Shown here: positions 1,620-40,881 of the stretch, piece after piece | Position numbering within the stretch: the first letter of the stretch is position 1 | How the letters are laid out: every line of letters starts with the position of its first letter | Translations under genes and position numbers: made by a program | The notes under the pieces: generated by a model | Told to the model about the DNA's origin: nothing | Databases searched by the model: none | The model's input: only the letters and a program-made list of their open reading frames with translations | NCBI GenBank assembly: GCA_037447655.1 | Contig: JBBHKE010000312.1 | Coordinates: 73,454 to 137,453 of the forward strand | Reading direction: 5' to 3' | Source of the DNA: Zygnema cylindricum | Taxonomy: Eukaryota; Streptophyta; Zygnematophyceae; Zygnematales; Zygnemataceae | DNA: 64,000 nt

Positions 1620-2020
1620 GAACCATTGTTCAAAGGTAGGCGTTTTTATGGTAGGCCTTTCGTAGGCGCCTTTATCCTAAGTTGTGTTATGGGCTTTTCA
1701 TGTGATCTTCTTAGATCGCTACTTTGATCAGCGACATTTCGATCGTCTAAATCTGACGATAGTCCTATCGTAAGTTTTGTTATGGGCTTTTCATGTGATG
1801 TTCTTGATAGCTACTTTGATCAGCGATCGTGCGATCGTCTAAATCTGACGGTTTTAAATAAAAAAAAAACTCAAAACTCACATAAAAAAAAAATTGTCCG
1901 AATGTTTTTCAAAATTTATCATGACGTTTAATTCTCTATCGATCGATGTACAACTCAACCATGTTTTATTTTTTTTCATTTTGCGACCAATACAATATGA
2001 GTCATAAGGTCATATTGTAT
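1620..2020 (+). repeat. Dispersed repeat R1, copy 1
   Basis: It shares order and sequence with 5515-5760 (same strand) and 4111-4300 (opposite strand): GTAGGCGTTTTTATGGTAGG, then GTTATGGGCTTTTCAT, then a GATC-rich part, ending in the inverted repeat CAATATGA...TCATATTG. Within this copy the GTTATGGGCTTTTCATGTGAT block is duplicated in tandem (about 1680 and 1778). No coding capacity is visible. It could be the remnant of a non-autonomous DNA transposon or a degraded LTR. Confidence 0.6.
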
Positions 2021-2027
2021 GTTTTGC

Positions 2028-2712: not shown

Positions 2713-3123
2713 TTTAACATCATTTTTTTATCGTTTAAATTTTAAAAGGCTTGTCCGCTCGTGTGATTGACCAATTTCTTTTTAGTACTACGTACTCTAT
2801 GTTGTGTATCGGCAAGAATTTTATCGCGGTAACACCGATACCGGATGCTATTGGTTATCGAACGCTCAAGGGTCCCAATATATCGCTCGGAGACTAACAA
2901 ATTCTTTATCGGCAATAAGTGGAAAAAATATAGTACGCTATATAATAAGACTTTAAAATATACTGGATTTTATTTTTCACTGTATATAGCGTGGCAGGCC
3001 ATGTGCAACAAAGTGTTACGTACTCTGTGTAGCATAATAACGACAGTTCAATACGACGCATAAACCGTACAATTATCGCGGATAGTTATCGACACTAGTA
3101 TTATCGTGATAAATGCAATTCTG
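2713..3123. other. Intergenic stretch, no gene seen
   Basis: AT-rich with CG-containing words such as ATCGCG and TATCGC. The 72-codon open frame at 2845-3063 has no recognisable motif and looks like chance. Confidence 0.45.
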
Positions 3124-4110
3124 TGTCCTCCATTTGACTACAGAATACAAGAAGCCTCCACATAGTTGTTAACAAGCCCACTTTAACCCACAGCCACTGC
3201 TGGCCAGGCAATCAAACTGACAATCTGAATGCACCCCTGTGTAGCCTGGACTCCTCTGAGTGCGTAGGAAAAAGAATCTCTGAAAACGCCCAACCAGGCG
3301 ATAAGTTATGAGGCAGTAAAAATGCCAATTTGTACAAACTCTCAAAGGGAGAGGTCGCCTACCCAAAATTTTCTAAGTCCTGATTCCCTCTAATAACTTC
3401 TATCTACTGAAGTACGGACCAATCAGATTATTGTACCGTACCAAAAAGTACTACTGCCGGTGTACCTTTTGTAGGGCCTATGTACGACGGGACTATTAAG
3501 CGGACGCGTGTCTCCTTTTCACTCGTCCGTAGATTCCTCGAAATTCCTATGACCGAATGTCATCTCTCCACGTGGCTCCAGGTCATGCCACGTCACTAAA
3601 TGCCAAAGTGACTACTCCGGGATTTCGGCGATGATGTGCGCCGTTGGATTTGCAGTGAGACGCAATCTTGGCCGTAATAAATACTTGCGCAATATTTGTT
3701 TCGTTGTCGAAACAAAATGCGTGGTATCCGTTTTGAATTGGTACATTCATAAAATTGTATCCATGCACGCCGTACACAGTTTTAGTTAAATGGATTTGCT
3801 CCTTCTGAAATATATATATATATCTATCACATACTATAGCATTTAGCATTGGTCCTACTCTAGTAGGATAAAGCTAACCACTATTGGTCAGCTTGACGAA
3901 CCGTAGGTACCGAGATCAAATCCCGGGTCCGTCAGGTAAATTTTTAGTAGCCTTAAAAATATCTGTCTGTTGAACTAAGGCAGCCATGGATAAACCACTC
4001 TCTCTATCCTTCAGTGACTACAACAAGTATGGGGGCTAGAGAGAGGAGGTGTAGGCAGGCTGTCTGTCCTTTTTCTTTTTCTTTTATACTAACATTTTAA
4101 ACCTAGACCT
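3124..4110 (-). mobile_element. Solo copia LTR (family of P1/M1)
   Basis: On the minus strand it shows the purine-rich hairpin (about 3985-4060), a tRNA-like segment with T-arm at 3910-3926 and T5 at 3941-3945 (both read on the plus strand), the G-box region near 3570, the GTAC-rich U3 end near 3430, and the conserved end GTAGTCAAATGGAGGACA. No internal region adjoins either side. Its upper boundary runs into repeat R1 copy 2, so that junction is uncertain. Confidence 0.75.
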
Positions 4111-4300
4111 TAAGACCCATATTGTATTGGTCACAAAATGAAAAAAAAAGGTAACAGGGTTGAGTTACACATCGTTCGATAGAGAATTAAACGTCATCGT
4201 ACGATCTTTGATCAAAATAGCGATCTAAGAAGATCACATGAAAAGCCAATAACACAACTTGCACCTACCAATGGCCTACCATAAAACGCCTACTTTTGTA
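4111..4300 (-). repeat. Dispersed repeat R1, copy 2
   Basis: Reverse complement of the second half of R1 copy 1. It includes the poly-A/T tract, the ATAGAGAATTAAACGTCAT block and the GATC-rich part near 4215. The terminal CAATATG inverted repeat is cut by the neighbouring LTR, which suggests the LTR arrived later. Confidence 0.55.
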
Positions 4301-4321
4301 CTATGCTATGGAATGACTCTT

Positions 4322-5310
4322 CTGTTGTTCTACAACTACTGTTGCAGGCGGAGAACCAGCAGTAGTAGTAGAAGTAGACATGAAAAACAACAGAAACTAT
4401 CAAAGTACCTACTCAACAGCCAACTTTGAACTGACACAAAATATGACTCAGAACCCCAATATGCTTCAAATTTGATACAGTGATACACAATACAGTAAAC
4501 TAAGAATTCCCAAAATTGCAGCACAAATGACCGAGTAAACCATAAGATATGATGTCTGGAAGTTTCCCAAAAACTGCCCTTAGAAAATCATATTCCCAAA
4601 ACTGGATACTACAAAATTGGCTAAGTCCTAATTTATATACTCACAGTGTGTATCTACTGATCTACACTAATTCGGGTAACCGTTACTACGGTTATTATCC
4701 TGACTAACGACAAAGCATCCTACCCGTACGTCACTGTACCTAAAAAAACCCTAATTGCTATTTTCTAAAAACCTGATTAATAGAACACTATTTTATGTCA
4801 CACTAAACGACAAACTAATGTTATTCAAATATTTACAGAAAATTGAACCGTACACAAAACGTTCTAACCGTACACAAAACGTTCCAAATGCTTAGTCAGC
4901 GGTGACCGCTAAAGTCCAGCCGAATGTGGTTGTGCAGTACGAAGCACCTGAGTGCTTCGTCACTTGTGGTCCCACGCGAATCACGCTTGTGGTCCCTCGT
5001 GAATCACGTTTGTGGTCCCAGGTGAATCGCGTCCGTTGGAACAGATTCGATTGACGATGGTACCGTCGAACTGTACCATATGTTTCCGGAATACTCGGGA
5101 CAGATCTCGTTCGTCCGATCATGTGAATCGCATCGTCAAATTTTTGACACGTATGCTTGACTGTCGGCGCTACTCCAAAAACCTGCATACGTTCTTTCGC
5201 CGACACGTGTCCCTGCAAAAGTACAATACACTCTACTGTACCTTTTGCAACTGTAACACTAATTAAGGTAAGTATTATTAGGAGAAATATCCTAAGTTAT
5301 TTTTACCCCT
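4322..5310 (-). mobile_element. Solo copia LTR (N1-like family) carrying a gag start
   Basis: On the minus strand the LTR ends with an ATG-initiated stub reading MSTSTTTAGSPPATVVVEQQ (about 4322-4381). This matches the gag start embedded in the LTR ending at 14474 (MSTSTTSATAPP...). Upstream it shares the ACTTAG...ATAATACTTACC...AATTAGTGTTACAG start block with the LTRs at 12240 and 13550. It holds a 23-bp triple tandem repeat (4963-5031). No pol follows, so it is a solo LTR. The far boundary is approximate. Confidence 0.65.
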
Positions 5311-5514
5311 ATAAACTGAAATAAAGATTTATAAACTACAACATCTTCATTCACGGTAGAACATGCGGTCACGTGACGGTCGCGTTCATGGTCACTGTAG
5401 TACATATTTTGTACTTTATCATCGCGTTTTTGGCAATAAAATCTTCTTCAAAGAACCGCCGATCCGTACATGGGCAATAGACGATTCGGTCTAGGGTTTA
5501 CAACAGAGTTCAAA

Positions 5515-5775
5515 AGTAGGCATTTTTATGGTAAGCTTTTGGTCGGCGCCTTTATCGTAAGTTGTGTTATGGGCTTTTCATATGCTCTTTTTAGATCACT
5601 ACTTTGATCAACGACCGTCCGATCATCCGAATCTGGCGGTGTAAATAAACTTTTTTGGTCCGAATGTTTTAATTGGTCAAGTTTTTGGTCTGAATGTTTT
5701 AATTTGTCCGAATAGGTCCGAATACAATATGAGTCTTAAGGTCATATTGTATGTGTTTTCATACCATTCATATTG
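5515..5775 (+). repeat. Dispersed repeat R1, copy 3
   Basis: Same order as copy 1: GTAGGCATTTTTATGGTAAGC, GTTGTGTTATGGGCTTTTCA, GATC-rich part, then CAATATGAGTCTTAAGGTCATATTG at 5713 onward. Confidence 0.6.
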
Positions 5776-6117
5776 TATGGGCCTACTCACCTACTCTTGA
5801 ACTATGATGAGAGCAGAGGCCCCGTTACTGCTAAAGTTAACGGACACGTGTGCACACATCCTCCCAAACAAGAGATTAAGCCTCACGTCTCGATGAGAAG
5901 CGACGAAAAAATATGCGCCAAAAAAAGTGGAGCTCGTTTAAGGCCTAAAAAATCTCGACCGTGTCCTAATCTTTTCGATGCTGTCAAATCGCACAATCCC
6001 CGGGAAGAAAGTAAGACATCACAAAATAAAGGACAGGGGAAGAAATCAAGAAAGCAAAGGTGGAAAAATATGGACTCTACTGTACATCCGAGGTTCTTTA
6101 CGAGGGCTAGTAGTTAA
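5773..6117 (+). CDS. Hypothetical basic open frame, 114 codons
   Basis: It reads as a Lys/Arg-rich, low-hydrophobicity protein with a KKSRKQRWK-like basic patch near the C-terminus and no cysteine cluster or membrane segment. It begins at the inverted-repeat end of R1 copy 3, which makes the first codons suspect. I recognise no family. It may be an exon piece, a decayed transposon frame or chance. GC content is higher than its surroundings, which is the only positive sign. Confidence 0.25.
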   Translation: MYGPTHLLLNYDESRGPVTAKVNGHVCTHPPKQEIKPHVSMRSDEKICAKKSGARLRPKKSRPCPNLFDAVKSHNPREESKTSQNKGQGKKSRKQRWKNMDSTVHPRFFTRASS

Positions 6118-6392
6118 GAAAAACGTGTGTCCCTGTGTCCACACCGAGAAGAGATAGTCTCACACGCCGTAATCGGGTATGGCAATAGGGTCATAGAGTT
6201 TGTTTTGTCTTTTTTTATAATAAAACAAAAAAAAAAGAAATAAAATAACCCCAAACATATGCGCGGAGAATACGAGGTGTGCCCGCCAATTACCGCATTG
6301 GCGCGTGCGAAAAAGCTTCAAAAAAATGCAAGGTTCAGTACAGTATTGTACTCTACTGTAGTGTGCCTTTCAAGCTTTCAGCTTCTTCACAT
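6118..6392. other. Short intergenic stretch, nothing recognised
   Basis: It contains an A-rich tract (6215-6245) and a CG-rich block. No repeat or gene was recognised. Confidence 0.4.
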
Positions 6393-7531
6393 TGTTGATA
6401 TTTGTGTATTTTCTAAGTCTATAGTAGGATAGAAAAAGGCAAGGGAAGTCTGCCTCTAACTCCCTTCTCCAAGCCCCCACACTTGTTGTAGTCAATGAAG
6501 GTTGGATAGGGAGAAAGAGCCATGGCTGCCTAGGCTCTCTAGAGAAGACAAGGGGTAATTTAGGTAGACTTACCAAAAAGGTACTTAACGGACCCAGGAA
6601 TTGATCCTGGTACCTACCGCTGTCAAGTCACCCGTAGCCGTTAGCTTTTTCCGTTAAGTCTATAACTAATGCTAAGGTGTATAAGGTTTGATGTATGTTT
6701 AAAAAATTACATGTAGAGATTTCCATTTAAATAGGTTAACGTCAAATAGAACATAGAATTAGTTGTACCTAAGTACCGGACAAAACAAATAGTACAGACA
6801 TTTGTTTCGACGGTCTGTATTACATGCCGATATAAATCAACAGTTGTGGTTCGAGCCGGGATTCCGGAATGGCCGCCTTGGGGTTTTCTGGCTTCGCCAC
6901 TCCGGATGACACGTGGCAAAAACCCGGAATGTTGCGAGATCGCCGGAATGCATGCTGACAAATTCGGATGTGACAAATGTCAGTATAATGGCGATGTTGT
7001 ATAATGTCCGTACAGAAAGTACTCCGACACATGTACTTTTTTGTACGGTACACTTATGTGATTGGTCCGTACCTAAGTACTAGGGGGTTTAGAGAGGGGT
7101 TTAGGACTTAGAATATTTTTGAGTATGTAGCCGCCTCTATCCCAAAGAGCATCTTGTATAAAAGGTAAACTTTGGCCAACCATAACAATAAACTCAATTG
7201 ACCATTTTCAGTGATTTTTTTTGCTGCGCGCTAAAAGGAGTCCAGGCTACACAAAGGTGTAGTCGGTTAGAGTGTTTGTATGCCAGGGTCGTTCCATTTC
7301 TAAGGGAAAGTCAAAGTGGGGAATGTTATCCAAAACTCATACTCTAACTTTGCATTTTGTGGTGGAACTGAGCACACAGAAAGTCTTATTTCATATGGGT
7401 GAAGCTGTTATGGGGTTGTGATTGTCAAGGGGTCAATCATTTGGGTTTATATAATCCTAGAGTCGACACTATCTAGATTAGCTTCTTTGGACCTGCGAAT
7501 TGTGTGTGGCAATGGAGCCCATAGAATTACA
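6393..7531 (+). repeat. 5' LTR of TG1
   Basis: It runs from TGTTGATATT to AGAATTACA. In order it holds the purine-rich hairpin (about 6450-6545), the antisense tRNA-like cloverleaf (6583-6659), a G-box TGACACGTGGC (6907-6917), a CCAAT-type GATTGGT (7060), a TATA-like TATAAAAG (7157) and the R-U5 part. The gag ATG at 7512 lies inside its last 20 bp. Confidence 0.85.
6583..6659 (-). ncRNA. tRNA-like cloverleaf antisense in LTR
   Basis: Read on the minus strand, ACTTAACGGA (6650-6659) pairs with TCCGTTAAGT (6583-6592) over 10 bp. Inside are a small AGC/GCT D-like hairpin, a CTAC/GTAG anticodon-like stem and a perfect 5-bp T-arm with 7-base loop (CCAGG-ATCAATT-CCTGG, 6594-6610). A run of five T follows at 6575-6579, where a pol III terminator would sit. 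The length (77 nt) is tRNA-sized. No standard anticodon identity is claimed. It may be a tRNA-derived pol III unit captured by the LTR. Confidence 0.6.
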
Positions 7532-16198: not shown

Positions 16199-16750
16199 TT
16201 GTCGAAATCACTGTTTTAGGGAAGGTATTTTCTAGGTCTTAAATTAGGTGAAATAAACAAAAGACAAAGCACAGGCAGCATGCCTCCACCTTCTCTCTCT
16301 AACCCCCATACTTGTTGTAGTCCCTGAAGAGGAGAGAGAGGGCGGTGGAGTCATGGCTCCCTCAGCTTCATAGACAGGTCTCAAGAGTGACCTAAGTCAC
16401 TCTCAACAAAAAGGTTGAGTTCGGCAGGACTTGAACCTCCGACCGGCAGAGCGAGGCGTAGCCGTCTGCTCTTACCTGTCTGTCGTAGAAGTCCGTTTAG
16501 GATACATAGGGTTTGATAGCTATTTAAACATTAGCAAGATCATTAATTCGTTCAATAGAATAATAAATTAAGAACATAGAAACTAGTTAAGTTTTCGTGC
16601 GCACGAAACAAATGTACCTGGCATTTGTTATTTTGGACGGCGAACATTAAGAGCCGGTTTTGATCCGACGGCCCGCATCGTCGCCGGAATCCCTGAATGG
16701 CCGTCTTCGCGGTTTTTAGACGTGACATGACTTGGCAATACGTGGAGGAG
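16199..16750 (+). mobile_element. Truncated copia LTR (P1 family)
   Basis: It starts TGTCGAAATCACTG like the P1 LTR (TGTTGAAATCACTAG) and carries the purine-rich hairpin (16280-16350) and antisense tRNA-like segment (about 16420-16495, with the T5 stop as AAAAA at 16408-16412). It breaks off near 16750 where gypsy LTR sequence begins. It was inserted into the integrase of the preceding copia. Confidence 0.75.
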
Positions 16751-16764
16751 TCCTGCAAATGACC

Positions 16765-16986
16765 CCCAAATACGAGTGCTTACCACAAAAAATGATCATG
16801 TCCACTGCTGCCCACCTCCCTCCCATAGATATGCATGCCAAATAGGAGAGACACTTCGACCAGGAATGGGAATGGGTGCATAAGACGGCGAAAGTAATCC
16901 CCTCCCCCTTCGTTTCCCAACCTAGCCAGGGAAAGGGATTGGGGTCTCGGTAATCGGGTTGGTATCCCAATTTCACCCCCTCTTAG
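16765..16986 (-). repeat. Gypsy 3' LTR remnant and polypurine tract
   Basis: The minus strand reads AAGAGGGGG (16976-16986) directly followed by TGAAATTGGG. A CTTAGTC...GACTAAG inverted repeat (16982-17001) overlaps the tract. The LTR breaks off near 16765 against the copia LTR. Confidence 0.6.
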
Positions 16987-17018
16987 TCAACTGGGACTAA
17001 GACAAACAAAAAATTTAA

Positions 17019-17243
17019 TTACCCGCTCCATTTGCAGTTCCCACAAAACCATAAGCTGGAGGGTAGAGGGCATGGTTCCCATGAGGAGGGGAGACAGGCT
17101 GGATGCCAACACTGACAACACTGATTGCAGACCAAGACGTCGTGTAGCTTGGAGGGTTGATTGCAAGTTGTTGAACAGGAAAGAGGATCAACAAAGTAAG
17201 TTAAACGGAAAGTGGGTTCGTCCTCAAACCCCGAAGATGGCAA
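17019..17243 (-). pseudogene. PHD finger at gypsy integrase C-terminus
   Basis: On the minus strand, Cys/His spacing CSTTC...LVCNQCCQCWHPACL...WFCGNC fits a C4HC3 PHD finger, the fold that reads histone tails. It follows the integrase C-terminal region (RVVEVSNKGVLTLEGKDG, about 17300) after one frameshift, and a stop comes right after the finger. In this position chromoviruses carry a chromodomain, so the likely role is steering integration to particular chromatin. The first pair is spaced C-x3-C rather than the usual C-x2-C. Confidence 0.7.
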
Positions 17244-18514
17244 GGGGCCATATTGAGTTGATTCTCTTTAATTCTTCGACCATCCTTTCCCTCCAATGTA
17301 AGAACCCCTTTATTAGAAACTTCCACCACTCTCAAATTTACCCGAACGACACAAATATCCAACCTGTCCTTTTTACAGTTGCATCCGATGTACAAAGCCC
17401 CCTGACATAAATTGTCGCTGTCGTGGCATATAATTCCCACTCCCGTGGTGAGAATACCACAATTGATCTCGGTGTTGAGTTGCTTGCGAATATCCCATGG
17501 CGAGTGGTATCTCTCGATGAAATATCTTGGCTCTGTCAGCGATTATTTTTTTGACTGTTCCTTTGTCATCCATCTCCGAGAGGACCACCGCTTGGGCCGA
17601 TGCAGCCCCGGGCAAGATGGGATGCTCTCCAAATAGAATGAAATAAAGGTTGTATGAGTAAAGAGAAGCATGCCTGCTGAATCTGTCGCCCATAGCAATC
17701 CAAGGCACCCTTCTGACCCACTCCCCCAAATCTTCTTCAACTGCATATTTTCGTAGTGACCGCTTCACTGTCTGTGCGCACCTTTCAGGCAGAACGTCGG
17801 CTTGCGGGTGGTCACGGCTGGTCAGCCGATGGTCGACCAGGCATTTTTTCAAGAGGTTGTTAAATTCTCCGGCAAATTCGGAGCCTTGGTCGGTTAGAAC
17901 TTATGAAAGCGCCCCAAATTCGGCAAAAACCCTTTGCAAAAAGGCATCTGGAATTGACTTGGACTCTTTTTGGGGCAAACCACCAATTCGATCCAATTGG
18001 AAAAATGTTCTATCATGACCAGCACGAAGAGGTTCGCCCGCTTGCTGGTCAGAAGAGGTCCCAAAAGATCCAAAGACCACCGATAAAACATCCCCCGGAT
18101 AGGTAGCGAATGAAGCTTAGTTTCGCATTTCTTTTCAAACGCTTCATTGACTCGATCGCAAGAGGAGCAAGTTTGTACAATTCGATTGACTTCGGTTCGC
18201 AACCCGTGCCACCAATAAGAACCTGCAACAAGGGAAGTGCTCCGCTTTTGCCCGAAATGTCCACATTGCTGATGGAGATTCGAAATTAGAGTTTCTCGGT
18301 CTGAGGGGGGAGGAACCACTTTCCTCATGCTGTCTGACCATTTATGGAGGAGAACGCCTCTGTCCAAATCATACGCAGCCATCCGGGTCTGCACTCGAGA
18401 TAATTCGATTCCAGTCAAGTGGGGAAGAGGTGACCCATGCTGGATAGATTGGAGGGCACCGGGGTCGTTCCAGATATCCTTCCGTCTGGCCTTTATGGGC
18501 GCCTGCCCCTCCAC
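17244..18514 (-). pseudogene. Gypsy integrase
   Basis: It inserts element cDNA into chromosomes. On the minus strand: the H-x3-H / C-x2-C zinc module (HQQCGHFG ... CSSCDR, 18270-18150), catalytic core with Asp in WSLDLLGP (about 18070), TDQGSEF (about 17890) and Glu in LPERCAQTVK (about 17780), then the C-terminal RDQL...VGIICHDSD region leading to the PHD finger. At least one frameshift separates core halves (about 17880) and another lies near 17430. The D,D,E residues are all still present. Confidence 0.85.
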
Positions 18515-19359
18515 GTCGGCCTAAAAATTGATAGTTACCCCCCAGATTGGGGAAGCCAGATGAAAGCGGAGGATGCTTGGATGAGTCCCTGGCTGATTTT
18601 AAGGACTTCATCATGCCGAGCCCCGGTAGAATCCATGGTGGAGGGATCGGGGTTCCGGCTAAGTCCATCGGCATTCCCATGGATATCCCAACTCTATGAA
18701 TAATGTTGAAATCATATTTTTGCAGGATAAGAACCCATCTGGCGAGTTTGCCGGTTAACTTACTATTTTCCATGATCCATTTGAGTGGTTGATGATCTGT
18801 GATCAAGGTGAAATAGACCCTGTACAAATAAGGATGAAAATGCTGGATTGCCCAAACCGCTGCGAGTAGCTCTCCGTGGTAACTGCTATAATTCCCTTCT
18901 GCTCTGTTGTTGCTCCGGCTAGCGTAGGCCACCACATATGCAGCTCTATCATCATCGACTTGAGCCAAATCTGCTCCCAATCCAAACCTGCTCCAATCAT
19001 TATAAAGGAGGAAAGGCCTCTGGTGATCAGGCATTCGGAGCACGAGTGTTGCTTCAGAGCATCCTTCAAGAACTTGAAGGCGATCTGTTGTTCTTCGGCC
19101 CAGTGCCATCCTTGGTCTTTCCGCAATAGTTGGTTGAGGGCCTGAGCGTGACTACTGAACTCGGGGATAAACCGCCGATAGTAGTTGGCTAGACCTAGAA
19201 AGGTGTGAATGGTTGAGTTGTCATGCGGTGGGGGAAGAGCGTTAAGGGCTGTTACCTTGACCATGTGGGGACCCACGGTCCCGGGAGTCACCTCATGTTG
19301 GAGGTAAATGATTTTTTGTACCCCAAAAATACCTTTGCCTTGGTGACATTTCAAGCCCG
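18515..19359 (-). pseudogene. Gypsy RT end and RNase H
   Basis: On the minus strand: RT thumb/connection (FLGLANYYRRFIPEFS, about 19180) and RNase H with LLYNDWSRFGLGADL (first acidic residue changed from the usual DAS), AYASRSNNRAEGNYSSYHGELLAAV and LITDHQPLKWI. This module degrades template RNA during reverse transcription. One frameshift lies near 19000. It joins the RT palm across the solo LTR at 19360. Confidence 0.85.
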
Positions 19360-20428
19360 TGAAACTCTGAGACCTTTATAAGTCCTCAGAATAGACAGCT
19401 TCCAAGAAGCTTCTAAGATAACCCTGACCCCTTTGTGTTTCAGCAAGAACAACTGCCACCTTGGTACGCAAAAACTTTGACCACCATAATCCCTGTGAAG
19501 GGAAGACTCCCGTGAGTCGATAGCAAAAAGAATCTCTGAATTTGCTCCCATGAGAAGTATGTTATGGAGGGTCAAAGTTGACCTTTTGTACAGAAGCTCT
19601 CTGGGAGAGAGGGTCCTATCTTCCAATTTTTCTAAGTCCTATCTCTCTCACAGACTCTATCTACTGACGTACGGAGCGAATCATATTACACTTTCGTACA
19701 CAAAAGTATAGCTGCCGGTGTACTTTGTGTACGGATATTGTACGACATGACCTAAAAGTCAACACATGTCATATCGGGATTCGGTCCCGTAATTCTCGGA
19801 GATGCCGCTATCCAACGCAATGTCGCCATGTGTCATTCGATGTAGCGTCTACCACAAACCGCCGAGATTCTTTTCCGCGATCTCGGCTTTCTTCCCGACC
19901 GTCCGATTGAATGCAAATTTCAATCAGAGCTGTCATAAATACTTACGCGGTATTTGTTTCATTTAAAGAAACAAATGCACGGTACTTGTTTCTTCTCTGT
20001 ACCGTAATCCATACTTCTAAATAATTGACTCTATGTATTTTGTAAGCAGTTGTCGTTAAATGAAAATCCTACGTGGTAATGTTTAAATATATATCAAACC
20101 CTATAGCATGTATCATTAGCTCTAGACCTAACGGATAAGGCTACCGTCTACCGGCTGCCAGACGTCCGGCAGGTGCCACGGTCAATTCCTGGTTGCATCA
20201 CTAATCCTTTTAGTAAATAAACTACCATTTAATAAGTGAACTAATCTATTTCCTGTAAATTTCTGGATAGCCTAGGTTCCCATGGCTCTAGCTTCCTCTC
20301 CAACTTCTCAATGACTGCGACAAGTGTGGGAGTTTGAGAGAGAAGTTAGAGATAGACTGCTTCGGCTTCTTTCTGTATTTCTATTTAGACTTAGAAAATA
20401 CTTACAAAAAAAACCAACAATTTCTACA
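19360..20428 (-). mobile_element. Solo copia LTR (N2 family) inside gypsy RT
   Basis: It runs TGTAGAAATTG (20428 downward) to GAGTTTCA (19360). Flanks are GCCCG (19355-19359) and GCCCA (20429-20433), a 5-bp target-site duplication with one change. It carries the hairpin, the tRNA-like segment (T-arm 20176-20192, TTTT 20208-20211, both plus strand) and the CATGTGTCAT version of the G-box near 19829. Confidence 0.9.
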
Positions 20429-21168
20429 GCCCACTGCTTAAATGGTCCGGAGGACGATCTGCATATGCTCCAAGTGTTCTTCAAAGGTCTTTGAGAAGAT
20501 GATCAAATCATCAATATAGCACCGGGCACAATAGATTCCCCGGAGTGCTTCATCCATGGCCTGTTGGAATTTGGCTGGCGTATTCTTAAGCCCGAATGGC
20601 ATGTAAGTCTATTCATAAAGTTAGGAACCTGCCCAAAAAACCGTTCTTTCCCGGTGCTTTAGTTCCATAGAAATCTGGTGGAAACCGTTTTTCATGTCCA
20701 GAGAGGAGTAGATAGTGGCACCAACAATGGAATCGAATATGTCTTCCGGGGTTAGCATCGGATACTGGTCAGAAATGGTGGCAGTGTTCAACATGCGATA
20801 ATCTCCACACATCCGGAAATCTACAGTTTTCTTGGACGAGTCCTTTTTGGGAAGGAGGACTTCGCGGAGGCGAACCCATGAAGTCCTATACCTTCTTGAA
20901 CCAATCCGACTTCCACCAAAGTGTGGACTTTAGCCGTGATGAATTCCTTCTCATTGAAGCTGAGAGGATACTGCTTCCGCCAAACAGTAGCTGTCTCGTT
21001 GATCAAATTGATTCGGAAAGGGGTCCCTTTGTAGATACGGACATGTGTTTCTGACCATGAGAACACTTGCTTGTTTTCGGCCAACAGTTTGGAAAGCCGC
21101 GCCTTCTGCTGAGGGTTTAACTGCTCCCCTAGGGTCCAATCCATTTTCCCGGCTCTACGACAGCCCAA
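20429..21168 (-). pseudogene. Gypsy reverse transcriptase palm
   Basis: RNA-dependent DNA polymerase. On the minus strand: GTPFRINLINETATVWRKQY (start, about 21030), MCGDYRMLN (about 20810), YSSLDMKNGFHQI (about 20700, first catalytic Asp) and CYIDDLIIFSKTFEEHLEHM (about 20510, the YxDD box). A TAA follows at HMQIVLRTI just before the solo LTR, and another break lies at 20630. The segment joins the methyltransferase end at about 21300-21400 through a poly-C-containing spacer. Confidence 0.87.
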
Positions 21169-21429
21169 GCTTCCGACGGTCTACCCTAGAGGTTGATGTC
21201 AAATTCCAACCCTACCGGTGGATCTGCCCCTACCCCTCTGGCTAGGACACTATTGCTGACAACTTCCGGTAAGCCCTAGCCATCTGAGCTGCCCCACCCC
21301 CCCCCCCCCCCCCTCTAGGAAAACTTGCAGTGGTGAAATGTGGTTTTTTTGTCTTCTCCTTTCTCTCCCCCCCTCAAGCTGCAAAGTTGCCTGAATCGCT
21401 AACAATTGAGGAGCTTAAAGGTATATAGC

Positions 21430-23610
21430 CCTGATTCCGGGGACTTGAGACTAGAAAATGCGAGTGCATGCTTGAGCACCCATGTGATCGAATTCAAATC
21501 CATACTTTGCCCAATTAGGCTCCATCTGTGAAGGTCTGAAATACTTAGTGCTGCCGTGGTTTTTTCTGAAATCCCATCGCTTCTTCCCGTTCTGCAATCG
21601 TTGGTGTTGTCAAGATTCCCGCCTTTTTGTCAAAAATCATTCCCGATGCTCCTTTTTGATATGCGTGACTGTGAAGGAAAGAGACCAAAGTCGGTAGAGC
21701 TTTACGTGGTGATCCTGGTTTGTTCTACTAGTAGAAAGGGGAGTGGTCGGGCTGTGTCACTGGTGTGGCCATCCTACTTTTCGCAAGAATTTGTTGCACA
21801 TAATTTTGCGGATTGGGGATTTACTTTGCCAATAGTTGCTGGAGGACTAGAAGCGTGATCATATTGGTCCAATATGTCTTTACTGGGTGTGCCCAGGATC
21901 CCATCTGTGCGGCATCGAAAACTAAGAGAGCTCCTGAAATCCGGGTTACCTGATTCCAGCTGTCCGCAACCTGTTTCTTTTTATCATCTCCTGGGTGGAC
22001 ATTTTCCAGAACGTACCCCACCGGTGTGTCCTGGAGTTGTTGAAGCCACGTGATTAATTCGATCATTTGGTAAAATGTTCCACTTCTGCGGTCTTGATGC
22101 CCTTTTCCTTATATCGCTAAGGAGTGTCCCTGACAAGGCCAGCTTGCCAACACCAAATCCACTCTTTCCAAACTGGCTAGATGGGTCCCCATGATGTTTT
22201 CTACATTTTGGGGAAGACTCCAGTGAACTTTTGAAAAAGCGGTCATCGGAAGCTGTTGAGGATATAGGTGATGAATCTGGTGGAGGCGGTGTTCGCTGAT
22301 AGCCCGCACCTCAGGTGATATTTCCACGGCTGTGTAGAAATTAATGATCCATTTTAAATATTTTCTAGGTCTAAATAGAAATATAGAAAGAAGCCGATGC
22401 AGTCTACCTCTAACTTCTCTCTCCAACTCTCAAACATGTCGCAGTCACTGAGAAATTGGAGAGGGAGCTAGAGCCGGCTATCCAAAGGTTTACGAAAAAT
22501 TTATATTAATTAGGGGTTTATTACTAAAAGGTATGTGTCGGCCACAGGATTTGATCCTGGTACCTATCGGCCGGCAGACAGCAGGTAGCCAGTAGCCTTA
22601 GCCGTTAAGTCTAGAACTAGTGTTACGTACTATATGGTTTGATATTTATTTAAACATCAATACGTAAGATATTTCATTTAAATGTAATTAGTTTACGGGA
22701 TACATAGATCCGGTAATGTAAAAGTACGGATTACGGTACGGACAACAAATCAGTACCGCCCATTTATTTCTTTAGTGAAACGAATACCGCGCATGTATTT
22801 ATTACGGCTATGATTAAATTCGAATTTAATCGGACGACCGAAATTAGCGCCGAGATCGCGGAAGAAGATTTCGGCGGTTTGTGGCCATCGCCACATCGGA
22901 TACCACGTGGCAAAATTACATTGGATCGTGGCATCTCTGGAGATTATGGCACCGAATCCGGATATGACATGTGTCGATATTTAGGCAATGTCGTACAATG
23001 TCCGTATATAAAGTACACCGGCAGCTGTACTTTTGCGTACGGAACTGTAATCTGATTGGTTCCGTACATCAATAGATAGAGTCTGTGAGAGAGATAGGAC
23101 TTAGAAAAATTAGGAGATAGGACCCTCTCTCCCAGAGAGCTTCTGTACAAAAGGTCAAATTTGACCCTCCATAACTTACTGCTTAGGGGAGCAAATTCAG
23201 AGATTCTTTTTGCTATCGACTCAGGGGAATCTTGCCTTTACAAGGGTGTAGGTGGTCAAAGTTTTTGTCGCCAGGGCGGTAGTTTTTTTTGCTGAAACAC
23301 AAAGGGGTCAGAGTTATCCTAGAGGCTTCCTGAAAGCTGTCCACTCTGAGGACTTATCGAGGTCTCAGAGTTTCAGGCTGCATATGACTCCACCAGATAT
23401 CATATTTTCAAATCGGCTTCCAAATCGGAACTAATTCCCGAAAAGAGAGATATAATACGGAGTCCGGAATCGGGGACTGCCAAGGACACTTGTTGTCGAT
23501 TGAACTCCACATTACCGTACTTGTGTGTTGAAGCGTCAAACATGATGAAAAGACTGCATCTTTTAATGATAATGCCGAAAATGTCAGATCCACTCTCCGC
23601 CAAAGTTTTG
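21430..23610 (-). pseudogene. C5-cytosine DNA methyltransferase domain in gypsy pol
   Basis: It transfers a methyl group from S-adenosylmethionine to cytosine in DNA. Minus-strand motifs in the canonical order: I, RIISLFSGI (about 23432-23450); II, YAAVEISPEVRAISEHRL (about 22300); IV, DLVLASWPCQGHS with the catalytic Pro-Cys (22126-22155); VI, GYVLENVHPGDD (about 22000, Glu-Asn-Val); VIII, AQMGSWAHPVKTYWTN (about 21870); target-recognition side with PRKALPTLVSF (about 21680); IX, TPTIAEREEAMGF (21571-21609); X, LIGQSMDLN (about 21505). A solo LTR (22333-23375) splits motif I from II. Stops after motif I (TGA), after IV (TAA), in the recognition part (TAG TAG) and frameshifts inactivate it. 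It lies between protease and RT. Confidence 0.88.
22333..23375 (+). mobile_element. Solo copia LTR (N2 family) inside the methyltransferase
   Basis: It runs TGTAGAAATTAATG to GAGTTTCA, 1043 bp, with a perfect 5-bp duplication GGCTG at 22328-22332 and 23376-23380. It holds the hairpin (22400-22480), the tRNA-like segment (T-arm 22544-22560 and T4 as AAAA at 22526-22529, minus strand) and a CCACGTGGCA G-box (22911). It is the product of LTR-LTR recombination of a full element. Confidence 0.93.
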
Positions 23611-24403
23611 CCACATGCTATAATCTTTTCTTATATTCCTCTTCCCACTGCTTAGTAATTTGGAATTGCTAGATTTCTTTGGCGATATCTTTGGAGCTGC
23701 CAAACAGTTTCGTTGGAGATAATGTAGTATATACAGGGTAGCAACCAGGCACTGGGACATTTGTCTTCCCCCAGTTCCATAAATAAAAAGGAACCACTAC
23801 TTTGGTTCCTTCGGGTTTTCCGAGGTCTCGAACAGTACATTGTTCGTTCCCCACGCTCAAACTCATATTAAGTCGGGTCCAAGTGGCCATTCCCAACAAA
23901 ATTTGGAATTGAGTTCCTTCCACCACCTAGAAGGGAAGCTCAATTTTTACCCGTTGGCCTCCGTCATCAGAAAACTTGATTTCCATGGCCTTGATTATTC
24001 CATGGTTTGGTTGAATACCGCTGCTTACAGTGCTTAAGTAGATATTGTTTGGCCAGATTTTGGGCCGGAGTTCCTCGAGCATTTTTTGCAAAGCGGAGGT
24101 GGTGATGAGGTTGGGGCGCGCTCCAGTGTCAACCACAGCGTCTTGGTATCCCCCGTACCTGTTGAGCTTGAAGCTGCCGGTTCCGTTCGGTATAAGGGCC
24201 ACTGATAAGGCTTTGTAGTCCCTATCCACAATAGGTGTTTTCGGCTCGGTGGACACAAAGACTGCGGACGCAGAGTTCCCCCCCTTTCCAAAATGGATCT
24301 CCTCTCCAAATGCTTGAATGAGGATGTCTTCGGGCACGTTGTGGGAGGATGCGAGAGTCTTCACGTGTGTGAGGGCGTATTGCATGAGGTGCCAGACTAG
24401 CAT
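23611..24403 (-). pseudogene. Gypsy aspartic protease
   Basis: Retropepsin that cuts the polyprotein. On the minus strand: YQDAVVDTGARPNLIT, with the catalytic Asp-Thr-Gly at about 24121-24135, and the end EGTQFQILLGMATWTR (about 23900), which is the ILLG strand typical of the family. A spacer (NEQCTVRDLGKPEG..., FYLWNWG) leads to the methyltransferase. Frames change at about 23927 and 23620. Confidence 0.85.
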
Positions 24404-26800
24404 GACTGCCAGTTTGGAGGAAGGGAGTGTATCCTTCGGTGAAGGCTAGGATGAATTTGGTTCCTGCATAACCTGATCTTGTCCTTCGGTCTCATTCTCG
24501 GATCAGGAATCTACAACTGGAGGTGTTAAAGGAGTGTCATTCTCCAAGCAATCTGCCATGTTTTTTTCAAGCCAGTCCTGATTGTCCTTTTTCTCTCGTT
24601 CTAGTGACTCCTTCTCCTGCTGTTGTTTCTCGTTCTGGTAGTTTTTGAAACCGCGAGGCAATTTATGTTTGGAAAGAAGAGATGGCGGATGATTCGGTTT
24701 GACTCCTAGGTCGATGGCGCTGTTCAGCATTACTGTCTTGGGAGTAAATGACAAAGGACCGATAGCTTTCCGGTTGTGATCCCTTTGACCCATTTTCTAC
24801 CTGTCTTGTCGTTGCATCGAGGTGGAATTGCGGAGTTGGCGTCGGCTGTCTCCCACCCCAACATTCCAATCTTCGGACCGGAAGGTTCGGGCATGGTGGG
24901 CATTTGGGGGTTTCAAATCCCAACCTAATAAGTCATCATCATTAGCACGCGCTGTGCTTTGAAGTTCAAGCTCCGCGAGCTTTTGCAACAACTCATGTTT
25001 TTTGTTTTTGGAGTCGTTGTGCTGCCGTGAGAGGAGCAGGCCGTGAATAAGATCCCAAGCCGAGGGCATCCAACTTTGCAGCCATTGCGGCCAATTGCTG
25101 ACTTTGCTGCTTAATGATGATCTTTGGTGTTAACCTTGCCAGAGCAGCTGATGCCCGCTCAAGTATCTTTGGCGTGGATAGAACTTGTCGCCCCCAAAGG
25201 TAAAGAAGTTAAAGTGGGAGATAGTTAACGACCGTTTCTCCCTCTCAAGTAATCAAAGCAAATTGCATCGTTTCCTTGGAAACTCCATTTTTCCGGAAAC
25301 ATTGCCCTTCCTTGTGCCCCATGAAACCACAAGCTTCACACTTAACGCCTTCGGTGGTATATTTACTCCGGATCTCGTTGGAGATTTGGGCGTCATCAAA
25401 CTTTGGATGTTTGATTTGGCGCAATTGTGATTGGGACATCTTAGAGGTTTCGCTCCGGTGAGTTAGACGGTAAGTGTCCTTTGTTACTAGCGTCTCCTCT
25501 CCCCCCCCTTCTCTTTTAAGCCTTTCTTGCTGTTTCCGGGTCCTTTCTGCACGTTGTTTCTCCTATTCCTTTAGCTTCAAGGCCACCTCCGGTTAAAGTT
25601 TCCGTGTGCAGTGCTTCCACCCATGACCGGATTGCTGACAATTTAGGCAATTGTAAAGGAAAACTCAGTCATCAGCTCCCATTGCCGGTTATAACCTGCT
25701 ATCAGCCACTTGCTTCCCTTTGAGCTTCCGCAAAGCTTGAAGTTCAGCTTTTTCCTCCTCACTCAAGGTGGTCTCCCCGGTGAATCCTGCAAAATTTGCA
25801 CGGGCCTTGCCTGTCAGGACCTTCTCACTTGCCTCACTGTGGACGGAGTGATCTTACAATTTTATCGCCACCAGCAAAATGCCCTTGGTGGAGGGATTAA
25901 TGTCTTGAATTGCCTGTCGGACAATCCAATTATCGAGAGTTGTTTGCCCTTTTGGCCCGAATGAGTTACGGACGGCGATGAAATATTTGGTGGCCATCGC
26001 CGAAAGATCAATGGTGGACGGTTTTGTTTTCTGACAAAGGCTGGAGAGTTGGTTAAAGAGGGTCTGCGGAGTCTCGTTCATCAAACAACGGAATTCCGTG
26101 AATTCCTTGATCGCAAACTCGTTCCTCTTGGTGTAAAGGAGTCTCCAGATATTAAGCAGGGTGGTACAAGGGTTCGGATTGGCCACCATGCGAGTTGGTG
26201 CCTAGGCTACCTGGATTGCTTGCAACGGGTTAACATATGCACCTCCTTGGGCCTGTAGTTTCATGTCCTGTGTGAAGGTAGCAGTCACAGGGGCTGCAGC
26301 CGCTGCAGCCAAGTCAGCCTCCGCTTGTAAGACTGCAACATCAAGGGCTGGATCCGAGATCTTGATGCATCAAAAGAGGTTGACGCTCTTTGTAATCCGC
26401 CAACGCCCCACCTGAAAGGTAGTTGACCATCATGGGAAAGAGAGTTGTTTTGAAGTCATCCGGAATGGCTCCTCCCCAGTACTTATTGATTTCGGATTGA
26501 GTGAAAGATTTCCACAACAACTCGAAATCCGAAAGTGCAATCCTTGAGCTATCTCCCGTAAAGATCATGATAACCCCCATTTCTTTTTCTTCGTCTGCAG
26601 TATTGGTGAAATGAGAAGAGAAAGGCCCTGTGACACTGACAAACTGGGCAGGCGAGATGACCCCCGTGTCCTCTTCCTCGGGAACGGAACCGTCTCCTCC
26701 TCCGATAGGAAGTGCAGCCCTAAAAGGTGTCGATCCCTATCCCAGAGAGGATGTACCAGCGCCAGAAAATATTGTTGGAGGAAAGATATTCCCCACTATT
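24404..26800 (-). pseudogene. gag: Gypsy Gag
   Basis: Capsid/nucleocapsid polyprotein. On the minus strand: an acidic N-terminal part (PIGGGDGSVPEEEDTG, about 26700), capsid helices (LWKSFTQSEINKYWGG, 26500; FTEFRCLMNETPQTLFNQLSS, 26090), and two CCHC knuckles: CEACGFMGHKEGQC (about 25310-25350) and CLNCQQSGHGWKHC (about 25605-25650). A Gln/Glu/Lys-rich coiled-coil-like tail lies near 24600. Many stops separate the pieces, so the start codon is not certain. Confidence 0.75.
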
Positions 26801-26900
26801 CCTCTATATCCAAGAGAGTATTGTTCTTTTCGGAGAACCTGATCCACCGATGGGATGTGGAGGCGAGGTCAAGGTCCTTGGGGAAGGGTTGGTGGCGGAG

Positions 26901-27769
26901 AAGGGGACAGGTGTAGATGTAAGGCATTCCGAGACGGCCATGCAGCAGTCTTCTCTAAAAACTGGCAACGTTTTAACATAGAAACCTTTCTGCTCAAAGA
27001 CATAGGAATTAATTTAGCTCTACGGATTAGTGAAAGCGTAGGATAAATGCCATATGGCAAGATAGGAACTTTTGCAAATTAAAAACGGGAATCCAACATT
27101 GGGAATTTGTCGTTTTCTGGCAAGCTTTGTCTCGGGATTTGTCGAACCTTGTTACAGTTAGGGTTTCACCTAAACATTTAATGACATGATAGTTTTGAGT
27201 TAGGGTTTTCTTTCAGACCCATAGTCTATGCAAGTGGCTGTCTCTGAGCTCCATAGTTTCTTTGTACCAAGTCTTTACCTAATCAAAGCGGCGCAAGCGA
27301 GCTTGTAAGGTTTCCCTCCAAACTGTGTTCTACTTGTCGTGGTGTACGAATTGTGTTGTGCGGATTAGGTGTTTTCTTGCTGTCAGAGTGTTGACTTTCC
27401 AGTTTAGCTCTCCTTCAGTCTGGCCTAAGGGAATATCGGCTATCCCGGCTCCTTCGTCCAGCTATGGAAGGGTTCTTGCCTGTTGGTTGGACTCCTGTAT
27501 GGAACATTAAAAGACTTCAGGGCCTAGTGGCCTGTCGCAAATACAAATTCCATCCTTACGAACTTGATTTTACTTTGTCCTTTTGTGCTATTTGCTTATT
27601 CTATGTGTTTGGCATGTTTCGCTTTTGGAGCGGATTCATTTATTATTTTTTGCAGTATACATGCTTTGTACTCTGGTAATGGTCGCGCGTGCTATACGTA
27701 TGGAATGTTTATCTATTTTTTGGTGTTTATCGGCGACCCAGGATAGATTTGATGCATGTCATTCACTGT
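26901..27769. other. Gypsy 5' side or intergenic, no gene assigned
   Basis: I expected the gypsy 5' LTR here but found no copy of its 3' LTR start (TGAAATTGGG). Short frames on the plus strand (27325-27750) are unremarkable. A TTAGGGTTT-type word occurs twice (about 27160 and 27205). Confidence 0.4.
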
Positions 27770-28271
27770 TGTACTGTCATGCACGACAGATCCTTATACT
27801 GCATGGCCACAAAGGTGACGTCTGTCACATCCGAACTTTTTATGATGCTTTCCGAAGATCCCGTAAACCAATGAGATGTCGCCACGTGTCATTCGGTGTG
27901 GAAGTGACCGATAACCACCAAAGCGGCCATTCCGTAATGTCGGCTCGCACCATGGCCGTCCGATCGAAGTCGACTATTAGTACAAGTCGTCGAATTATAA
28001 GTCCGTAGCATTTGTTTCCTACTGGGTATAAAATGCAAAGGAATTTATGTTCTAAAAGTCCGTTTTGATAGCTAAATGGAATTCCCTATGTGTACACGTG
28101 AAATAGTTATCGTACCCTATATATCCTTACAGAGTTCCTAAACTATATGATAAAGCTAACGGCTACCGGCTACTCTAACAAACGTTAGTTACCAGGATCA
28201 AATCCTTGTTGCGGCAGCCTTTTCCGTAAGGTCTTATCTTAGCTTGCTTACTGTCTTTTTGGGCAGCATAG
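27770..28271 (-). repeat. M1 3' LTR, distal part
   Basis: It matches 51370-51699 and 57059-57180. It has the GCCACGTGTCAT G-box (27880) and the tRNA-like segment (T-arm 28192-28208, TTTT 28220-28223, plus strand). It stops at the P1 insertion, with target CATAG at 28267-28271. The left end is truncated. Confidence 0.8.
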
Positions 28272-29234
28272 TGTTGAAATCACTAGATTTAGGGGGTATT
28301 TTCTAGGTCTGAATAGATTAAAAGCAAAAAGAAAACGCATAGCTAACCTGCCTCCACCTCCTCCTTCTAGCCCCTATACTTATTGTGGTCACTAGAGGAA
28401 AGAAAGGGCGGTGGAGCCATGGCTGCCTCAGCTCCATAGGCAGGACTGAAGAGTGACATAAGTCACTCTTCAGCAAAAAGGTGAGTCCGGCAGGACTCGA
28501 ACATCCGACCGTTAGAGCAAGGCGTAGCCGTCAGCTCTAACCGGTTTGTCGTAGGAGTTCCTTAGACTACATAGGGTTTGATTGCTATTTAAACAATGTT
28601 TAGGAACTTTAGTTGGATTAACGAAATTACGGATAAAGAACATAGAGACTAGTTAAAATATGGTGCGAACATGCACCGCACGAAACAAATGTACCAAACA
28701 TTTGTTTTCAACGGCTAGTATTAAAAGGAGGTTAGGATTCGACGGTACGTATCATAGCTGAGATCCGGGAACAATCGCTTTGGCGGTTTTTAGGCGTGAC
28801 ATGACCTAGCGCCACGTGGCAAGGAAATCCCGGGAGCATGAGGAAGAGTCTGAAAGAGACATACGCTCACTCCATGACCTTGTCGTACATAGGTCGTACA
28901 GAAAGGACATCAACCATGGTACCTTTCTCTACTTCAATAGATAAGGGTTGTGAAAGGGGTTTATGATTTAGAGGATTTAGGAGGTAGCCGCCTCTCTCCC
29001 ATAGTATTTCAATAAATCTTGGCATCTTTGCCACTTGATAACAAATCGCCTAGTTGGGCGTTTTTCTGTGATTCTTTTTGCTGTGGACCCAGAGGAGTCC
29101 ACAGTGCATAGTGGTATAGTCAGATTGTTTATTTTCCTAATTGGATAGCATTCGTCTTAGTTGAAAGTGGGTCAGTCAAACACTGCCTAGAGGCTTCCTG
29201 AATTCTGCAGTCAAATGGGTGATACAGAATTGCA
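28272..29234 (+). repeat. 5' LTR of P1
   Basis: It runs TGTTGAAATCAC to CAGAATTGCA. It carries the hairpin (28345-28425), the antisense tRNA-like segment (about 28481-28556; B-box-like GTTCGAGTCC on the minus strand; T5 as AAAAA at 28475-28479), the G-box GCCACGTGGCAA (28811) and an ATG (29214) that opens gag. A degenerate primer site GGTAGGGGCCCACC follows. Confidence 0.85.
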
Positions 29235-39081: not shown

Positions 39082-39817
39082 CATTGAAATCACTAGATTT
39101 AGGGGGTATTTTCTAGGTCTGAATAGATTAAAAGCAAAAGGAAAAAGCATAGGCAGCCTGCCTCCACCTCTTTCTTCTAGCCCCCATACTTCTTGTAGTC
39201 ACGGAAAGTATGAGAGGGCAGTGGAGCCATTACTACCTCTGCTCCATAGGCAGGACTGAAGAGTGACATAAGTCAATTTTCAACAAAAAGGTGAGTTTGG
39301 CAGGACTCGAACATCCGATCGGTAAAGGGAGGCGTAGCTGTCACCTCAAACCAGTCTGTCGTAGGAAGTCGTTAGACTACATAGGGTTTGATTGCTATTT
39401 AAATAGTGTTTAGGAACTTTATTTATATAAACGGAATTACGGATAAAGAACATAGAGAGTAGTTAAAATATGGTGCAAACATGAACCCGCACGAAACAAA
39501 TGAACTGGACATTTGTTTTCGACGGCTAGTATTAAAAGTCGGTTAGGATACGACGGCAAGTATCATCGCCGAGATCTCAAAATAGCTGTTTTAGCGGTTT
39601 TAGGGCGTGATATGACTTAGTGCCACGTGGCAAGATAGCATTGGGAAGCGAGAATCTCGTGAGCATGAGGACAAGTCCGAAGGAGACAGACGTTCACTCC
39701 ATGACCTTCTCGTACACAGGTCGTACAGAAAAGACATCGGCCATGGTACCTTTCTGTACTGTACAATCTTTTGATTGGTTCGTACTTCAGTAGATAAGGG
39801 TTGTGAGAGGGGTTTAG
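39082..39817 (+). repeat. 3' LTR of P1, first part
   Basis: It matches 28272-28970, including the hairpin, tRNA-like segment (T5 as AAAAA at 39285-39289) and G-box (39621). It stops at the N2 insertion. The duplicated target TTTAG is 39813-39817 and 46265-46269. The LTR resumes at 46270-46539. Confidence 0.88.
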
Positions 39818-40868
39818 TGAAACTCTGAGACCTCCATAAGTCCTCAGAGTGGACAGCTTCCAAGAAGACTCTAGGATAACTCTGACCCCTTTGTGTTTCA
39901 CCGAAAACAACTGCCTCCCTGGCTGACAAAAACTCTGACCACCTGCACCCGTGTGAAGGCAAGACTCCCTTGAGTCTATAGCAAAAAGAACATCTGAATT
40001 TGCTCCCCTGAGCAGTAAGTTATGGAGGGTCAAAGTTGACCTTTTGTACATAAGCTCTCTAGGAGAGAGGGTCCTATCTCCTAATTTTTCTAAGTCCTAT
40101 CTCTCTCACAGACTCTATCTACTGATGTACGGAACCAATCAGGTTACAGTTGCGTACGCAAAAGTACAGTTGCCGGTGTACTTTATGTACGAACATTGTA
40201 CGACATGGCCTAAATGTCGACACATGTCATATCCGGATTCGGTGCCATAATCTCCGGAGATTCCACGATCCAACGTAATTTCGCCACGTGTCATCCGATG
40301 TGGGGATGGCCACAAACCGCCGAAATCTTCTTCCGCGATCTCGGCGCTAATCCTGGCCGTCCGATTAAATTCGGATTTAATCGTAGCCGTAATAAATACA
40401 TGTGCGGTATTCGTTTCACTTACGAAATAAATGCGCAGTATTGATTTTTCGTCCGTACCGTAATTCGTACATTATATATTACCGGATCTATGTATCCCGT
40501 AATCTATTACAGTTAAATGATTTATCATACGTATATCTATTTAAATAGACATCAAACTATATACTACGTAACACTAATCCTAGACTTAACGGCTAAGGCT
40601 ACCGCCTTTTAGCTGCCTGCCGGCCGGTAGGTGCAAGGATCAAATCCTGTGGCCGGCATGATCCTTTTATATAAATAAACCCCTAACAAATATAAATTTC
40701 CTGTAAACCTCTGGATAGCTTAGGTAGCCATGGCTCTAGCTCCCTCTCCAATTTCTCAGTGACTGCAACAAGTTTGAGGGTTTGGACAGAGAGGTTAGAG
40801 GTAGACTGCCTCGGCTTCTTTCTATTTAGACCTAGAAAATACTAGAAAATGAACCATTAATTTCTACA
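39818..40868 (-). repeat. 3' LTR of N2
   Basis: Same order as the 5' LTR. tRNA-like T-arm 40634-40650 with TTTT at 40665-40668 (plus strand), G-box at 40284. Confidence 0.9.
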
Positions 40869-40881
40869 CTCCCCTTATTTT

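Follow-up and report, generated by a model that had tools for sequence, protein, structure and literature searches.

The closest described system to the locus analysed here is KnitGypsy-Dnmt3 of Klebsormidium nitens. As reported by de Mendoza et al. 2018 (PMC5890265), it is a gypsy element whose Pol frame contains, like those of the elements described below, an unrearranged DNMT3-class domain, and this domain is under purifying selection; the pointer to this study in an earlier reading made from the letters of the stretch (called the sequence-only reading for simplicity) was correct. According to the same study, SymbioDIRS-Dnmt3 and SymbioLINE-Dnmt are also retrotransposons with C5 methyltransferases and number in the hundreds in Symbiodinium, but they are DIRS (tyrosine recombinase) and LINE elements rather than gypsy and were reported as independent captures (PMC5890265). 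DIRS elements with Dam-like methyltransferases are likewise retroelement-borne, but their enzymes are of the adenine type and belong to an unrelated family (PMC5890265). In yeast, two tested SymbioDIRS enzymes performed de novo methylation of CG sites, and KnitGypsy-Dnmt3, the closest tested enzyme, gave no methylation, which its authors regarded as inconclusive (PMC5890265). A 2025 study mentions streptophyte LTR elements with DNMT3 members and terms them Copia (PMC12344493). In the accessible portions of the open-licence literature, including PMC12477816, PMC9033089, PMC6453930 and PMC9246332, we found no description of Marchantia copies, of the order RNase H-methyltransferase-integrase or, outside Symbiodinium, of an expansion as large as the one reported below. 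A gypsy-borne methyltransferase is therefore known already from KnitGypsy-Dnmt3, and the family presented here is broader and more varied than the descriptions found. The best explanation overall, to which we assign a probability of roughly three in four, is that the window (the whole 64-kb stretch of Zygnema cylindricum DNA analysed) contains a decayed gypsy-polyprotein methyltransferase nearest to DNMT3, and that its relatives most likely methylate their own cDNA.

The C5-cytosine methyltransferase lies on the minus strand at 21447-23516, flanked by the protease and the reverse transcriptase (RT) of a decayed Ty3/gypsy element. The sequence-only reading had listed seven C5-methyltransferase motifs in canonical order on this strand, and all seven were located: motif I (LRIISLFSGI, 23433-23462), motif II (VEISPEV, 22307-22327), motif IV (LASWPCQGH, 22124-22150, with PCQ at 22130-22138), motif VI (YVLENVHP, 21992-22015), motif VIII (21863-21910, its arginines replaced in the window copy), motif IX (TIAEREEAMGFQ, 21566-21601) and motif X (IGQSMDLNS.., 21474-21515, in a different frame from motif IX). 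The motif names and the assignment of the window residues to them are those that we take to apply. The domain survives in three pieces: an N-terminal piece with motif I and one in-frame stop (23376-23516, matching P0011 residues 23-69, E 6e-4), a main piece with motifs II, IV (Pro-Cys-Gln), VI (Glu-Asn-Val), VIII and IX and in-frame stops (21566-22351, matching PF00145 and 47% identical to P0010) and a C-terminal piece in another frame with motif X (21447-21584, matching P0010 residues 310-355).

Submitted singly, the open pieces of the window methyltransferase gave no Pfam match at E 0.1, and against solved structures they gave nothing notable (no match, or one unrelated match at E 0.95); the case for a methyltransferase thus rests on the longer reading with the stop masked and on the homologues. 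Once the stop at 22109-22111 was treated as X, a match emerged in the profile search proposed by the sequence-only reading: the part from motif II to VIII reached E 3.1e-6 and 27.3 bits against PF00145 (Pfam cut-off 22), and the middle part reached E 6.9e-8 and 32.5 bits against TIGR00675, far under the cut-off of 100.65. Two open genomic copies scored 48.8 and 51.8 bits with PF00145. A homologue search with a 269-residue query from the window frame returned seven proteins of 176-437 aa, all with PF00145 (best E 4e-43), and the same search with longer candidates allowed added seven more, the best at E 2.9e-66 with 95% of the region covered. The predicted structure of the P0010 methyltransferase domain is of fair quality (pLDDT 74, pTM 0.81) and shows strands alternating with helices, which may reflect a Rossmann-type fold.

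The surrounding element survives on the minus strand at 16747-26908 and is collinear with L080, a kin copy in the same genome, over 16747-19358, 20425-22336, 23376-26121 and 26065-26908. After subtraction of two inserted LTRs it measures about 8 kb, and both outer ends are gone. Its decayed Gag region with a CCHC-type zinc knuckle occupies 25245-26736 (P0012 match at 25254-25376, E 1e-6); the knuckle itself gave a weak Pfam match under the cut-off (E 0.057), and genomic copies align to about 26708-26908. The aspartic protease region with its N-terminal spacer follows at 23831-24877 (P0012 residues 391-728, E 2e-25), with a VDTGA motif at 24107-24133, also on the minus strand, and has no Pfam match of its own in the window. 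Beyond the methyltransferase come the first part of the RT with its leader (20429-21147, YIDD at 20504-20518, 55-69% identical to P0010; RVT_1 E 3.4e-6 and 27.3 bits, slightly under the cut-off of 29.6), the last part of the RT (19052-19357, 59% identical to P0010 residues 713-814), RNase H (18642-19079, RT_RNaseH E 2e-31, 68% identical to P0010) and the integrase with zinc-binding domain, core and C-terminal part (17034-18559, Integrase_H2C2 E 9.5e-15, 48-54% identical to P0010 residues 980-1488), all on the minus strand. Between 24877 and 17034, the window matches pieces of P0010 and P0012 in collinear succession. The element thus shows the protease-RT-RNase H-integrase order and the gypsy-type RT by which gypsy elements are recognised, and the best solved relative of the P0010 RT is Ty3. 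It is almost certain, in our view, that this segment of the window represents the methyltransferase part, now decayed, of a Ty3/gypsy polyprotein with the order Gag-protease-methyltransferase-RT-RNase H-integrase.

The window copy is a dead pseudogene and cannot act, as it contains in-frame stops, a frame change between motifs IX and X, replaced motif VIII arginines and two solo LTRs. The hiding of the element or the change in its regulation, which the sequence-only reading envisaged for a copy that methylates its own or host DNA, is conjectural. The methyltransferase is interrupted by a solo LTR of a copia-type family at 22333-23375, which is 80-88% identical to copies at 19360-20428, 39817-40869 and 45218-46264. 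This LTR, already proposed from the letters, is real: it is bordered by a 5-bp target duplication, GGCTG, and L080 has the empty site with a single CAGCC. The RT is likewise split, at 19360-20428, by another solo LTR of this family, which has the target duplication GCCC followed by one mismatch; L080 runs continuously across both sites. At sites where seven kin agree, the window copy has 58 C-to-T changes among 947 non-CpG positions versus 25 T-to-C changes among 1025; of its 55 CpG sites, too few to infer past methylation, 4 changed from C to T.

At 16747, where other copies continue, the window switches to an LTR-like repeat. The repeat pair 16200-16745 / 28272-28819 was considered as the element's own LTRs and rejected, because this repeat occurs once more at 39084-39618 and homology to the element ends at 16747. 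No LTR pair belonging to the element was found in the 64-kb window, and a search for the primer site with a pattern that we take to represent plant initiator tRNA gave one match with two mismatches versus 3.8 expected by chance.

That the segment might be a host methyltransferase gene lying by chance inside or beside the element could be argued from the nested insertions that break the element up. It is, however, collinear with P0010, P0012 and the fetched genomic copies, and putative host DRM genes lie elsewhere in the genome. We therefore reject a host gene beside the element, as the sequence-only reading had anticipated, and give this explanation next to no weight. The same position in the independent polyproteins P0010 and P0012 and in own-genome copies supports a gypsy-borne enzyme.

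P0012 (1458 aa) combines protease, methyltransferase and RT in one protein, with CCHC knuckles upstream recognised by eye, and P0010 (1494 aa) combines methyltransferase, RT, RNase H and integrase. Another homologue search, the third, yielded 82 proteins; 13 rows are named Marchantia polymorpha, a land plant that is not a tracheophyte, and one Klebsormidium nitens (P0066). The latter (KFL_009030040) has the order protease-methyltransferase-RT-RNase H-integrase, and we infer that it is one of the elements described in PMC5890265. The window clade is another branch than P0066 and groups with P0010-P0012. As in KnitGypsy-Dnmt3, the methyltransferase lies in a gypsy Pol frame in P0010, P0012, P0066 and the genomic copies L076, L077 and L083. 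The placement between protease and RT inferred by the sequence-only reading recurs in P0012, P0066 and 13 of 16 fetched genomic stretches.

The methyltransferase alignment comprised 87 rows, after 7 of 94 had been dropped as short, and revealed two arrangements. In type A (44 of the 87 rows, P0066 among them) the domain precedes the RT: 14 rows have the RT after the domain in the same protein, 28 have an upstream protease but lack an RT in the same protein, and P0002 and P0003, which show the domain alone, were assigned to type A by default. In type B (43 rows, including P0039, P0049, P0053 and P0068) it lies between RNase H and integrase, six of these rows having been typed by inference as their start is missing. 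Type B fell on one side of a single branch in quick trees of the methyltransferase and of RT-RNase H (support 98 each), and a careful tree with eight type B rows gave its branch a support of 100/99. The two arrangements would most simply reflect a single shift of the domain's position inside Pol, but they may instead go back to separate captures of two related genes.

Within type A, the locus L001 (positions 3-6632) has a first ORF with protease and methyltransferase that ends in TAG CAATCA and is followed in the same frame by RT, RNase H, integrase and a PHD finger. CARYYA is a leaky-stop context. Six other type A proteins (P0022, P0023, P0025, P0028, P0032 and P0033) end nearly alike (GGM.ALSAT.), the stop codon itself having been observed in L001. 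Together, the six protein ends and the L001 stop suggest production of the enzyme at the Gag rather than the Pol level in this branch.

Copies were sought in the 352.8-Mb assembly (2689 contigs) that contains the window. The search with the window frame found at least 132 places, merged into at least 130 loci, i.e. the window itself and at least 129 others that are 60-76% identical; equal scores in four pairs of places may reflect assembly duplicates. A PF00145 search found at least 123 places, and the union of both searches comprised at least 218 loci on 190 contigs. These searches score the best candidates, and more loci may therefore exist. Of the 218, the locus on contig C2414 coincides with a DRM-type motif and is probably a host gene, as others may be, so that 129 is the safer number for the window family. 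On C2414 (G000:C2414, at 27693 and 41642) two neighbouring GGSPCNN motifs of the DRM type were seen, which probably mark host DRM genes; DRM is restricted to streptophytes according to PMC12344493, and the motif pair therefore points to a streptophyte host. A search for the dirigent family gave no match, and neither did its control. A genome pattern search for PCN(D/N), covering serine in its TCN codons, gave no match. WPCQGHS in its exact DNA form (serine as TCN) was found at four places in the genome, and of the 53 loci in which the domain matched, most read WPCQGY. Among 54 own-genome loci that were read, many of them 3-4 kb long and some overlapping, 48 had an RT match.

Sixteen genomic stretches, mostly selected for open frames, were fetched. 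Unlike a segment standing alone as a host gene, which was part of what the sequence-only reading had named as refuting its view, the methyltransferase lies inside the element and is followed by RT and then RNase H in 16/16; integrase was found in 14/16, an upstream protease in 13/16 and a zinc knuckle in 12/16. In L076 and L077, open frames of 1520 and 1525 aa extend from the methyltransferase through the integrase. L083, of another subfamily, has a single frame of 2395 aa and end repeats that are identical over 420 bp, the fetched stretch ending within the second. Because of this identity the insertion looks recent, if the end repeats are LTRs. KnitGypsy-Dnmt3 was reported with DIRS-like repeats (PMC5890265). 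L083 has direct repeats at both ends, the second incomplete, and may have a DIRS-like arrangement too.

Selection on the methyltransferase domain was assessed by NG86 omega on 16 distinct open copies (120 pairs, of which 60 were saturated or undefined and four fell outside the dS bins). The median was 0.41 at dS <0.1 (6 pairs), 0.22 at dS 0.1-0.3 (22 pairs), 0.16 at dS 0.6-1.0 (6 pairs) and 0.11 at dS 1.0-2.5 (22 pairs), values that are biased downwards by the selection of open copies; compared with the Ka/Ks below 0.2 that characterises KnitGypsy-Dnmt3, the medians are lower at dS >0.6 (0.11-0.16) and higher at dS below 0.3. One close pair, L056/L074, had an omega of 2.1. The RT (13 copies) is more constrained, with 0.18 at dS 0.1-0.3 and 0.02 at dS 1.0-2.5. 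At the level of coding sequence, these values show purifying selection on the methyltransferase domain outside the window copy.

Residue conservation bears on whether the domain still methylates. The catalytic Cys is kept in 85 of the 87 rows (two gaps), the motif VI Glu in 87/87 and each motif VIII arginine in 86/87, near-invariance across strongly diverged rows that argues against a domain retained as a structural or nucleic-acid-binding module without methylation. Such a module would be in line with the replacement of the motif IV Pro by Glu (WECQ) in 16/87 rows, which keep the catalytic Cys (L083 is of this type as well), and with the inactivity of KnitGypsy-Dnmt3 in yeast, inconclusive as it was (PMC5890265); we consider it improbable.

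Among the methyltransferase classes compared, the enzyme is closest to DNMT3, and it lacks the motif rearrangement of DRM. Against solved chains the family profile scored 78 bits with DNMT3A, 45 with HaeIII, 42 with 4onj (which we take to be tobacco DRM), 37 with HhaI, 34 or less with DNMT2-type tRNA methyltransferases and 29 with named DRM2 chains; no chain named DNMT1 or CMT was among the 57 chains found at E 0.01. Pfam reported no DNMT3 companion domain in the scanned polyproteins, neither PWWP/ADD, which accompany animal DNMT3, nor DUF3444. The latter is the companion domain of plant DNMT3 according to PMC6453930. The profile scores also bear on RNA as a substrate. Methylation of element RNA or of the tRNA primer would fit the presence of RNA in gypsy particles and the tRNA methylation performed by DNMT2-type enzymes. 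RNA methylation was raised by the 2018 authors for LINE elements (PMC5890265), but in view of the 78 versus at most 34 bits we find it a shade more improbable here than a non-methylating module.

Descent from a host DNMT3 is plausible from these similarities. An origin from a phage or bacterial DNMT3-like enzyme is the less probable source, though one that deserves serious consideration: a Bacteroides phage enzyme scores 73.5 bits, close to the approximately 78 of DNMT3A, tblastn with P0005 matches 52 of 50,697 phage records (all below 60% identity), and the element has PCQ in motif IV, as does HhaI, versus PCN in DNMT3A. When three other phage enzymes served as the root of a tree with a single DNMT3A fragment and few outgroups, the retrotransposon rows instead formed one clade (99/98) beside DNMT3A and the Bacteroides phage row (96/91), where long branches meet. 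Neither P0011 nor an RT-RNase H piece detected a relative in scans of viral contigs, and a scan with the methyltransferase alignment gave 27 loci, known by their scores.

In the relatives with open frames, the methyltransferase would be made within the polyprotein, travel in the virus-like particle alongside the RT and methylate the double-stranded cDNA of the element before or during integration, such that the new copy arrives marked. Both positions of the domain lie within the complex that makes and integrates the cDNA, which makes cDNA methylation the simplest mechanism, and the de novo CG methylation by the Symbiodinium DNMT3s shows that retrotransposon enzymes of this class can be active (PMC5890265). 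Taken as a complete sequence of steps, this particle-borne scheme is tentative, and we put it a little short of even odds; we infer packaging, substrate, timing and benefit of the enzyme alike. A benefit could lie in protection of the cDNA, in passing as host DNA or in self-restraint that spares the host. Counting against the best explanation are the negative result with KnitGypsy-Dnmt3, the broken window copy, the omega of the methyltransferase above that of the RT (0.11 vs 0.02 at dS 1-2.5), its median of 0.41 in the closest pairs (dS <0.1) and the value of 2.1 for L056/L074.

Alternatively, the target might be the host genome, reached in trans, or the site of insertion, with a change of the chromatin there rather than of the cDNA. 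The many copies per genome and the PHD finger (PF00628) that ends the integrase in relatives, likely a chromatin reader that could bring the complex to chromatin, point in this direction, but the domain adjoins RT or integrase and hence sits in the cDNA-handling complex; we judge trans action unlikely. Returning to methylation of the element's own cDNA, a far-reaching extension would make it part of the normal life cycle throughout a streptophyte gypsy lineage. The domain would be older than the split between Klebsormidium and liverworts and would have moved once within Pol, between the position ahead of RT and that between RNase H and integrase in either direction, and never been lost; in genomes like the present one, the element enzymes would be abundant enough to shape the host methylome. 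This extension is speculative and in our view less likely still than trans action. DNA methylation usually targets transposons, and a gypsy lineage with its own methyltransferase is a natural system in which to ask why parasites mark themselves. With two domain positions and many open copies, the question is testable in streptophyte algae and Marchantia through methylomes, cDNA and insertions; at least one young-looking copy and the large copy numbers add to the value of the system.

Several minor observations concern the relatives and the surroundings of the element. Chromoviruses are gypsy elements with a chromodomain after the integrase. They thus carry a chromatin-reading module at the integrase end, and the relatives described here have a PHD finger (PF00628) instead of the chromodomain, plus the methyltransferase; the finger follows the integrase in the second ORF of L001, in P0068, in P0051 and in many type B rows. 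In P0068, at about 1800-1966 past the PHD finger, a DPWAG motif was noted by eye that may belong to an adenine-type methyltransferase, in a region with no Pfam match. L001 (CADCWO010000201.1), the one locus found in a scan of prokaryote genome contigs, is filed under a Synechococcales MAG; it is a eukaryotic-type gypsy element and looks like contamination of the MAG. In the window, the element is abutted on the plus strand, at 26909-27789, by the remains of another, L083-like subfamily of methyltransferase-gypsy elements whose coding part is missing: positions 26909-27543 correspond to L083 303-945 (83%) and 27546-27789 to L083 9241-9480 (76%), i.e. the leader sequence is joined directly to the 3' region.
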